In this document: in pieces, positions 50,194 through 52,080 of the stretch
Layout of the letters: each line of letters starts with the position of its first letter
Position numbering within the stretch: the first letter of the stretch is position 1
NCBI RefSeq assembly: GCF_030068455.1
Contig: NZ_JAQOSQ010000024.1
Coordinates: 1 to 57,819, forward strand
Reading direction: 5' to 3'
DNA from: Roseofilum casamattae BLCC-M143
GTDB lineage: Bacteria > Cyanobacteriota > Cyanobacteriia > Cyanobacteriales > Desertifilaceae
Length of the DNA stretch: 57,819 nucleotides
Translations under genes and position numbers: made by a program
Notes under the pieces: generated by a model
Databases searched by the model: none
Seen by the model: the letters and a program-made list of their open reading frames with translations, nothing else
Told to the model about the DNA's origin: nothing

Positions 50194-52080
50194 ATGGAGT
50201 GGAAGGAAGGAACACTCGTTGCCAAAAAATATCGAATTGAACGAGTTCTCGGTCGTGGAGGGTTGGGAGTGACCTACAAGGCCCAACACGAGACGTTGGG
50301 TTCCTATTGCGCGATTAAAACGCCGAAAACTGAGTTGAGTCAAGATGCGAATTACGATGAGTTCGTACAACGGTTTCGTCAAGAAGCGCAAACCTTAGCT
50401 CGATTAAAACCCCATCCCCATATTGTCCGAGTTTTCGATTTATTTACTGAAACCGATGAAGAGAACCCGGACTTGGAGATTGATTGTTTGGTGATGGAGT
50501 TTATTGAGGGAGAGAGTTTATACGAAAAAGTGCGGCGTCGCGGAGCGCTACCGGAAGCCGAGGCCGTACGATATATTCGTCAAGTCGGTAGTGCTTTGGT
50601 CGAAATGCATAAAACCGGATTGGTTCATTTTGATGCGACTCCGGTTAATATTATGATTCGACCGGAGGGGGAAGCGGTCTTAATTGATTTTGGTATTGCG
50701 GGAGATTGTCGTCCCAGTTCGATTTCGTATCGAAGGGGAAACGATGGGTTTGCGCCTTACGAGCAATTTTTGGGGACGCGAGAAGTTACGGTGGATATCT
50801 ACACGTTAGCGGCTTCGCTCTATTACGCGGTCGTAGGAAAGTTGCCCGCTCAGTCTATGGAACGGTTGCAGAATAATGTTCCGTTGATTCGTCCGGACCA
50901 GCATCGAGCGATCGATAATGGTCTCAATTATGCCATTATGTGGGGCATGGCATTAGAGGCGCAAGATCGTCCGCCGTCTATGGAGCGGTGGTTGGAGTTG
51001 CCGGCGTTTTCCGATGATGTTATTCCGAAGACGGTGAAGTTAGAAACGGCGTCGGGAGAGACTTCGAGAGCGAATAGTATTCCCGATAGTGGATGGGATT
51101 GGTCTTGGTTGCCTTGGGTTAATTCTTCGCCATCACCAGCCGCGCAACCCACTCCACCGCGAAGAGTATCAGTTAACCCAACTCCTATTCCGACTCCGAA
51201 TAAGACGATACGGGTATCTCCTCCCACGCGGCCGGTAAAGGCGAAACCCGCTCCCTCGCCGAAACTCCCCAGATTTCGCTTTGAGACGGTACAGACAAAC
51301 CGCGAGGGGAGAGTTATTCGCCAGGAGCAGCGGGAAGCGGAATATTTTCGCGAGGACTTGGGAGATGGGGTATTTTTGGATATGGTGGCCATTCCGGGAG
51401 GGAAGTTTCTCATGGGGTCGCCGAAAGGTGAAGGTCTAGATAATGAAAAACCCCAGCATTGGGTGACCGTACCGCCGTTTTTCATGGGCAAGTTTTTGAT
51501 TACCCAAGCTCAATGGCGCAGGGTGGCTTCCTTTCCTCAAGTACGGCGTTCTCTGAAGTTAGATCCTTCCCGGTTTAAGGGAAAGGACTTACCGGTGGAG
51601 CACGTTTCGTGGTATGATAGTGAAGAATTCTGTGCCAGATTAGGGCGGCAAACTGGAAAGCCATACACTTTGCCCTCTGAGGCTCAATGGGAATATGCCT
51701 GTCGTGCCGGAACTCAAACTCCCTTTGCTTTTGGCGAAACTTTAACTGCCGATTTAGCAAATTTTGACCGTCAGTACAACCAAACGACTCCAGTCGGACA
51801 ATTTCCGCCTAATCGATTTGGATTGTACGACATGCATGGGAATGTTTGGGAGTGGTGTGGCGATCGCTGGCATAATGACTATACCCATGCACCTGCTAAT
51901 GGTAGTGTATGGTTAAATAGCGATAAAGGAAATAAAGGAAGAAGAGTTATACGCGGTGGTTCTTGGAACTTCAATCCTAGGTTTTGTCGCTCTGCGTTTC
52001 GGATCAACGACTATCCGGACAATCTGAACGACAGCATAGGGCTGCGGGTTATCCGTTTCCCCCCCCCCAGGACAAAGTAG
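50194..52080 (+). CDS. Ser/Thr protein kinase fused to an FGE/C-type-lectin-like domain, candidate DGR target
   Basis: This 628-residue protein has an N-terminal eukaryotic-type kinase (10-285): Gly loop LGRGGLGVTY, ATP Lys K42, catalytic loop VHFDATPVNIM (D147, N152, with Phe replacing the Arg of HRD), DFG at 165-167 and an activation segment with FAPYEQF. A Pro/Thr-rich linker (~295-380) follows, then an FGE-sulfatase domain (~390-625: IPGGKFLMGSPKGEG, LPVEHVSWYDSEEFCARL, LPSEAQWEYACRAGT, LYDMHGNVWEWCGD, RRVIRGGSWN). The first catalytic FGE Cys position is Phe, so formylglycine synthesis is unlikely and the fold probably binds ligands. The last ~35 codons resemble a diversity-generating-retroelement variable repeat. 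Kinase-FGE fusions are known DGR targets in cyanobacteria. The start is the ATG at 50194. Confidence 0.88.
   Translation: MEWKEGTLVAKKYRIERVLGRGGLGVTYKAQHETLGSYCAIKTPKTELSQDANYDEFVQRFRQEAQTLARLKPHPHIVRVFDLFTETDEENPDLEIDCLVMEFIEGESLYEKVRRRGALPEAEAVRYIRQVGSALVEMHKTGLVHFDATPVNIMIRPEGEAVLIDFGIAGDCRPSSISYRRGNDGFAPYEQFLGTREVTVDIYTLAASLYYAVVGKLPAQSMERLQNNVPLIRPDQHRAIDNGLNYAIMWGMALEAQDRPPSMERWLELPAFSDDVIPKTVKLETASGETSRANSIPDSGWDWSWLPWVNSSPSPAAQPTPPRRVSVNPTPIPTPNKTIRVSPPTRPVKAKPAPSPKLPRFRFETVQTNREGRVIRQEQREAEYFREDLGDGVFLDMVAIPGGKFLMGSPKGEGLDNEKPQHWVTVPPFFMGKFLITQAQWRRVASFPQVRRSLKLDPSRFKGKDLPVEHVSWYDSEEFCARLGRQTGKPYTLPSEAQWEYACRAGTQTPFAFGETLTADLANFDRQYNQTTPVGQFPPNRFGLYDMHGNVWEWCGDRWHNDYTHAPANGSVWLNSDKGNKGRRVIRGGSWNFNPRFCRSAFRINDYPDNLNDSIGLRVIRFPPPRTK
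51955..52058 (+). repeat. Candidate DGR variable repeat (VR) at the 3' end of the kinase-FGE gene
   Basis: The segment encodes RGGSWNFNPRFCRSAFRIND followed by YPDNLNDSIGLRVIRF. Known cyanobacterial DGR variable repeats share the frame [14 protein letters not shown].R...PDN..N.IG.RV with AAY codons in the template. Here those positions read TTC, TTT, TTT, ATC, GAC, TAT, GAC and AGC, mostly explainable as changes at adenines. The invariant frame codons are intact. A G/C-rich run follows the last codons, where an IMH element would lie. No template repeat or reverse transcriptase was seen in the window. Confidence 0.55.
52059..52068 (+). repeat. Homopolymeric tract of ten C residues near the stop codon
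   Basis: Ten consecutive C residues encode part of the final FPPPRTK of the kinase-FGE protein. Such tracts slip easily and would change only the last few residues and the stop. The tract lies where a GC-rich IMH of a DGR variable repeat would be expected. Confidence 0.9.

Follow-up and report, generated by a model that had tools for sequence, protein, structure and literature searches.

The window, i.e. the whole stretch of 57,819 nucleotides that was analysed, is one complete contig (C24) of the genome of Roseofilum casamattae BLCC-M143 (G000). It encodes a fusion of a kinase with a formylglycine-generating enzyme (FGE)/C-type-lectin (CLec) domain, the gene of which carries a variable repeat (VR) at its 3' end, the position expected of targets of diversity-generating retroelements (DGRs), and is followed by a hairpin (Table 1). 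According to its translation, the protein ends in RGGSWNFNPRFCRSAFRINDYPDNLNDSIGLRVIRF. The putative catalytic loop of the kinase (50626-50649) reads HFDATPVN and retains the Asp and Asn of the usual motif HRDLKPxN. Among the matches listed, 79 of the 80 full-length relatives of the kinase were titled as cyanobacterial and one belonged to an Acidobacteria bin, and none was close enough for a strain-type comparison (38% at best).

Table 1. Positions, in the window, of the kinase-FGE gene and of the features associated with its 3' end.
Feature	Position	Strand	Basis
Kinase-FGE target gene (Ser/Thr-type kinase + FGE/C-type-lectin domain), 628 aa	50194..52080	+	ORF; Pfam Pkinase, FGE-sulfatase
Kinase domain, residues 13-224	50230..50865	+	Pfam PF00069, E=3.2e-31
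FGE/CLec-fold domain, residues 396-621	51379..52056	+	Pfam PF03781, E=6.5e-59
VR tract, similar to the larger C17 copy apart mainly from the Asn-type codons	51941..52063	+	80% identity, base-by-base edges, codon-position test
VR core: 13 Asn/Tyr-type columns, 8 changed from the template frame	51955..52056	+	Codon and template comparisons
Hairpin CCGCC-GAA-GGCGG, 57 bases beyond the VR core	52114..52126	+	13-mer recurrence in the genus

PDB sequences matched by the FGE domain include PvdO, formylglycine-generating enzymes and the variable protein of Treponema denticola (2y3c, E=1.8e-18), and an AlphaFold2 model of the domain (36 sequences, pLDDT 87.1, pTM 0.89) retrieved the same set with Foldseek (2y3c, E=1.3e-17). 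In this model the C-terminal domain is of the FGE/CLec fold, a result that concerns the fold rather than the ligand. In the alignment to 6s07, SWNFNPRFC of the window lies opposite SFLCHESYC of the enzyme, whose Cys residues we take to be the FGE catalytic cysteines, and only one Cys is present there in the window. Judging from the fold and the fusion, the randomised face of the domain probably tunes which ligand switches the kinase; this follows proposals in the available sections of PMC7517822, where a ligand-switched sensor role of the kinase-CLec variable face is put forward as a hypothesis.

A second copy of the VR tract forms the end of an 877-aa FGE protein encoded on contig C17 (the larger C17 copy) and is 80% identical over 124 bp, whereas the FGE bodies of the two genes are 58% identical. 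The differences between the two tracts lie mainly in 13 Asn-type columns, in which 14/26 first and second bases differ as against 1/13 third bases (8/6/1 differences at codon positions 1/2/3). The 19 other VR columns show 2/1/2 differences, and 200 codons of the FGE body show 71/48/130, mostly at the third position. Variation that falls on the two adenine-reachable bases of AAY codons and spares the third is the reverse of ordinary drift. All 13 Asn-type codons of the window have C or T as their third base (P = 1.2e-4, the rest of the domain giving a reference of 50%), as do those of the larger C17 copy, of G004_C71, G004_C3, G004_C76 and G005_C119, of both G164 targets and of the pair G001_C34/G002_C87 (G001 to G005 being congeners); the count of such NNY codons is 11/13 in G002_C79 and 12/13 in the smaller C17 copy. 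The third bases of the window differ in these columns at 2, 0 and 2 positions from G004_C71, G004_C3 and G002_C79, respectively, and at 4/13 from the smaller C17 copy. Across 97 homologue sequences, mean column entropy is 3.45 bits in the Asn-type columns, 1.03 in the other VR columns and 1.32 in the FGE body, and residue 596, which lies outside the Asn-type columns, is equally variable (3.51 bits).

The codon-position comparison was run on 24 pairs. A Fisher test gave p = 4e-4 for the window against the larger C17 copy and p = 6e-6 against G004_C3; in the DGR-bearing positive controls, the differences at positions 1/2/3 were 9/6/0 (G164 pair) and 6/6/0 (cis against remote target of G003). The orthologue pairs G001_C34/G002_C87 and G001_C70/G002_C54 show zero first- or second-base differences at the 13 columns (p = 1), and their VR-like ends are, as the aligned sequences read, frozen. 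The test was not significant for window/C2 (p = 0.24) and C50/C3b (p = 0.17). It was significant as well for the window against C27 (p = 0.0093) and C3b (p = 0.0064), with third bases differing at 9/13 and 8/13 columns, and for the paralogue pairs C27/C2 (p = 0.0053) and C2/C3b (p = 0.026), which lack third-base identity (differences likewise at 8 or 9 of the 13 columns). Alone, the Fisher test is not specific, and third-base near-identity is what distinguishes VR pairs from other paralogue pairs.

These observations bear on two rival explanations. Ordinary positive selection on a ligand-binding FGE surface is very improbable. FGE/CLec surfaces do bind ligands, selection can yield variable columns, and the codon-position test was unspecific in the paralogue pairs just named; selection would, however, also use third bases, because a change from AAY to AAR alters the residue, and against this stand the 13 NNY codons out of 13 and the few third-base differences from the other VRs. 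Furthermore, the rest of the VR is alike while the third positions of the body have diverged (3/32 between the two copies of the source genome, vs 130/200, p=2e-9). Gene conversion among FGE paralogues, equalising the tract before normal drift resumed, would fit the higher identity of the tract than of the bodies, but it would have equalised the Asn-type codons too, and those differ most; we consider it hardly credible. From its codon patterns, the 3' end of the kinase-FGE gene is read here as a real DGR variable repeat.

Because the window VR has no template of its own, the adenine rule had to be judged from foreign templates and other VRs. Differences at template adenines, as expected of a DGR VR, were found in this indirect form with 11 templates, chosen from 29 other loci returned by the template search and all from other genomes; 10/11 lie directly behind a reverse transcriptase (RT) on the same strand, and in G094 the RT is nearby on the opposite strand. 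With each of the 11, changes at the first two codon positions are over-represented at template adenines (one-sided p 0.0016-0.04), as with the G164 template, from which the window VR differs at 11/29 A and 2/35 non-A positions. The foreign templates also differ from the window at 7-16 of ~30 non-A third bases and at 2-7 non-A bases in positions 1+2, and FGE-body controls show a weaker A bias in the same direction (p 0.025-0.036 in four of five, 0.21 in the fifth). The preliminary description had proposed a DGR target in the kinase-FGE fusion, and on this point codon positions, homologue entropy, templates and hairpin recurrence agree. The eight codons that it listed at template-Asn positions (TTC, TTT, TTT, ATC, GAC, TAT, GAC and AGC) are all present. 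A correction applies to residue 602, which is not a strict Asn column because 7 of the 11 templates have Tyr there (Asn in 4/11).

The hairpin downstream of the VR (Table 1) lies behind the stop codon, outside the VR as first delimited, and is followed by an A/T run. The identical 13-mer occurs six times in six genomes of the genus (1 in G000, 1 in G001, 2 in G003, 2 in G004, 0 in G002 and G005), 6/6 behind a VR; a reverse-read control gave one occurrence, in G002. In the three cis DGRs of the genus, the VR is followed by the hairpin in the form TTCCGCC-GAA-GGCGGAA; no hairpin was found within 110 bases behind each of three congener template repeats (TRs), and it is absent behind the two C17 VRs. 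A looser hairpin pattern was found once in the window, for 0.03 expected from dinucleotide shuffles, and a GC hairpin lies ≤160 bases downstream of 19/88 VR-type ends of homologue loci, compared with 4 in a within-gene control stretch. When folded as a single strand, 52030-52130 does not stand out (z -1.43), so that the case for the hairpin is one of sequence recurrence rather than of folding energy; a search of the window gave no Rfam family at the gathering threshold. The recurrence suggests that the hairpin is likely a landing signal marking DGR targets, and it may also be a terminator, given the A/T run. In the three other genomes of the genus that have the intact 13-mer, it is accompanied by an RT (3/3), a hint that an RT may have been missed in the source genome.

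The machinery itself was sought in the source genome, a 5.1 Mb draft of 74 contigs that is 98.2% complete. Searches with the RVT_1 profile and with congener DGR RTs gave no DGR RT. RVT_1 matched two RTs, on C7 and C8, which are read from their sequences as being of group II intron type, ending in an HNH-like tail, and retron-like, respectively; these were the only matches of the congener DGR RT, and weak ones (37.9 and 27.9 bits). The Avd search gave 0 matches at E≤0.1. Searches for a TR with the VR and with the inferred template gave three VRs plus matches of ≤47 bases; the longest of the latter, considered as a hidden TR, lies inside the FGE paralogue C3b and was rejected. Remnants of RT or Avd beside the window gene or the other fetched FGE loci were looked for by tblastn with congener and foreign queries, with nothing below E 0.037. 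The last contig, C74, has 1,096 bases, so that a contig carrying a cassette of ~1.65 kb (the VR-to-TR distance in congeners) would probably have been retained; a plasmid left out of the assembly is possible. The earlier proposal that the target is currently served in trans was therefore not borne out, the searches of the source genome having yielded neither a DGR RT nor an Avd or TR. Such a negative search was what the preliminary description had named as speaking against its proposal, and it was obtained here on a draft, not on the complete genome.

The source genome has 12 FGE matches, including the window gene and two C17 genes. C27, C2, C50, C3b, C28 and C1 were tried as VRs and rejected, NNY not being significant (P 0.056-0.68), and C3:171010, C19 and C3:84408 did not pass the motif filter and stood outside VR testing. 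The FGE-domain match at C3:84408-84773 has an in-frame TGA and is likely a pseudogene. The C17 locus (5926-11873, reverse strand) encodes a VMAP protein, a MoxR-like AAA ATPase (its match to bpMoxR stays under the cut-off) and, behind them, the 877-aa and 312-aa FGE proteins, both with VR-type ends; no Avd, RT, TR or hairpin was detectable in this interval. Its gene order is like that of a DGR home locus, and it is possibly a former donor site. AAA ATPase/VMAP surroundings have been proposed for DGR-diversified sensors in the accessible part of PMC10907252.

Complete DGRs are present in three congeners. Indeed, G001 (C88), G003 (C37) and G004 (C87) have cis DGRs with an FGE target, Avd (a Pfam bAvd match in G001), RT and TR, and their TR-to-VR mismatches fall at template A in 13/15, 9/9 and 11/14 cases, respectively. 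A further target of G003, the remote G003_C63, shares both the frame of the cis target and the 13-mer. In G002 and G005 the searches gave no DGR RT and no Avd. From the upstream gene to the end of the target, the G002 locus can be aligned with the G003 DGR locus at 85-88%, and the match ends inside the hairpin: on C14 (reverse strand, ~4230-4280) the locus is cut within the VR-downstream hairpin. Beyond the break, at the point where the cassette starts in the sister species, stands a palindromic GAAACCCGGTTTC repeat, and the 2.3 kb fetched behind the target contain no Avd, RT or TR. Similar repeats occur in the window at 5304, 5353, 50062 and 50110. At the G005 locus, the match stops a little ahead of the VR. 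Read at the sequence level, loss of the DGR cassette does occur in the genus and is observed directly at the G002 locus. Besides, G005 C119 and G004 C76 combine target bodies of the cis-DGR type with a VR tail of a different class (CRCA...GLRVVLPL), as though a template had overwritten a target other than its own or recombined into it. At the level of the order, a related RT (E≤1e-40) was found in 80/388 genomes, and 14/67 genomes have a match to the inferred template but no related RT; these counts are rough, the template search giving at most two candidates per genome and the RT search five, and some template matches spanning 47-62 bases. In one of the 14, the single-contig G329, a TR-like tract lies close to an Avd fragment and to the C-terminal portion of an RT (C1 ~7813198), an arrangement that looks like a dead DGR.

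The time of diversification was approached through third positions. In the gyrA-type gene (47384-50023), third bases differ by 43-46% between G000 and five congeners. The VR pair of the source genome, with its 3/32, is far closer than gyrA between G000 and G004 (399/876, p = 3e-5), the sole congener for which this comparison was computed, so that the copying by which the two tracts became alike most likely postdates the G000-G004 split, provided that VR third bases vary as freely as gyrA third bases do. In DGR-bearing genomes the corresponding counts are 0/32 for G164 (p=0.24) and 1/64 when pooled with G003 (p=0.11); since the difference is not significant, the count of the source genome is compatible with present activity. 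Past DGR activity in the lineage of the window is supported by the sequence comparisons. It is improbable that the hairpin is only a terminator travelling with gene ends and the VR a decayed, very old DGR relic. The A/T run behind the hairpin would agree with this, as would the ends frozen between species in G001_C34/G002_C87, a pair with 13/13 NNY, and in G001_C70/G002_C54, but an old relic should show third-base drift, which the comparison with gyrA contradicts, and none of the three TRs checked is followed by the hairpin.

The inferred template matches six cyanobacterial plasmids (Anabaena pANA02, Nostoc pn2, two of Microcystis, Acaryochloris pREC1 and one of Fischerella), and the window VR itself as query gave no plasmid match. 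An RT or RT fragment lies near the template on 6/6 of them (five annotated, the sixth via tblastn). The plasmid pREC1 is typed as conjugative and its template frame is nearly that needed by the window VR, which differs from it in positions 1+2 at 10/28 A and 2/36 non-A bases (p = 0.0028). The other five plasmid templates gave p values of 0.0016 and 0.012 in two cases and 0.11-0.12 in three, in ungapped comparisons; several of these templates are offset from the window by at least one codon. To judge from these sequences, cyanobacterial DGR plasmids are a possible donor for the window VR; no viral or phage donor was found with one exact pattern in viral contigs and one blastn against phage records.

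These plasmids give some weight to an explanation that overlaps the second half of the reading preferred below, in which RT, Avd and TR reside on a plasmid or in a missing part of the draft and diversify the VR today. We regard it as unlikely, albeit with several points in its favour: the hairpin and VR frame are intact, the intact 13-mer is otherwise always found with an RT in the genus, templates of similar frame occur near an RT or RT fragment on all the plasmids matched, and the third positions of the VR are indistinguishable from those of DGR-bearing pairs. Against it are the negative searches of the 5.1 Mb, the expected retention of a cassette contig, and three T/C third-base differences in or adjoining the VR core (51954, the Cys codon and codon 613), which are not accounted for by adenine mutagenesis from a single template.

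The best explanation, to which we assign a probability of roughly 0.8, is that the VR of the kinase-FGE gene is a genuine DGR-built repeat whose Avd, RT and TR have since been lost or lie on a replicon missing from the assembly. A DGR of the lineage would have copied a template of approximately the form ...(N/Y)RNNNNPDN.NNNIGLRV into the 3' end of the gene, randomising adenines; the pattern is visible in the codons, and the copying would account for it. Avd, RT and TR would later have disappeared from the genome, or would be located on a replicon absent from the assembly, and the kinase-FGE target would now be an orphan in the assembled genome. As no resident DGR was found, it falls outside the definition of a remote variable protein and is filed here as an orphaned variant. 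A wider scheme can be offered tentatively, and we hold it to be doubtful: chromosomal kinase sensors would keep the full address (VR and hairpin) while the machinery comes and goes, mainly on plasmids, so that they are re-randomised on its arrival and frozen on its departure, the window gene being frozen and still addressable.

A target-side test, composed of NNY-only columns, third-base near-identity and the hairpin 13-mer, detects past or hidden diversification without an RT, and the genus displays complete, decapitated and orphaned DGR states side by side. This makes testable how frequently hypermutation is switched off through loss, and whether plasmids switch it back on. The cyanobacterial DGR survey (PMC7517822), in its available text, sought repeats around reverse transcriptases; with such anchoring, an RT-less genome would count as having no DGR biology. 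Novelty is limited, because kinase-CLec remote targets are already known from the same source. No literature on VR-bearing genomes without an RT was found, judging by titles and the starts of abstracts in a search with most subscription journals outside its coverage. As far as this search goes, what is new is that a target is still addressable in a genome lacking a detected DGR RT and that the loss states can be seen in sister species.

This is not the first kinase fusion of its kind. The STK-CLec remote variable proteins of cyanobacteria (Vallota-Eastman et al. 2020, PMC7517822), as presented in the part of the paper available, are like the window protein in having an N-terminal Ser/Thr kinase, a C-terminal CLec/FGE domain, a VR at the 3' end and a position far from the RT; unlike it, they are linked to a DGR of their own genome, and none was found in G000. 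Even the orphan-like case described there, all3226, comes from a genome with two DGRs, unlike G000. The cis DGRs of the genus (G001 C88, G003 C37, G004 C87) share with the window the FGE-domain target, the hairpin 13-mer and a similar VR frame, but they have Avd, RT and TR, and their template, as read in G003, differs in sequence class from the one that the window VR needs. A hairpin downstream of the VR is shared with the DGR target site of the Bordetella phage BPP-1, in which a hairpin of this kind is required for efficient homing according to the accessible text of Guo et al. 2011 (PMC3240598); the phage hairpins described there have stems of 7-10 bp and 4-nt GRNA loops and lie 4-34 bp from the VR, whereas that of the window has a 5-bp stem and a 3-nt GAA loop and lies 57 bases from the VR core. 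Finally, the incomplete DGR loci of Thiohalocapsa PB-PSB1, as covered by the available portion of PMC10907252, resemble the window in having targets without local machinery, and some natural variants of Thiohalocapsa PB-PSB1 retain an RT that is missing from the reference. That genome has other complete DGRs, whereas none was found in G000.
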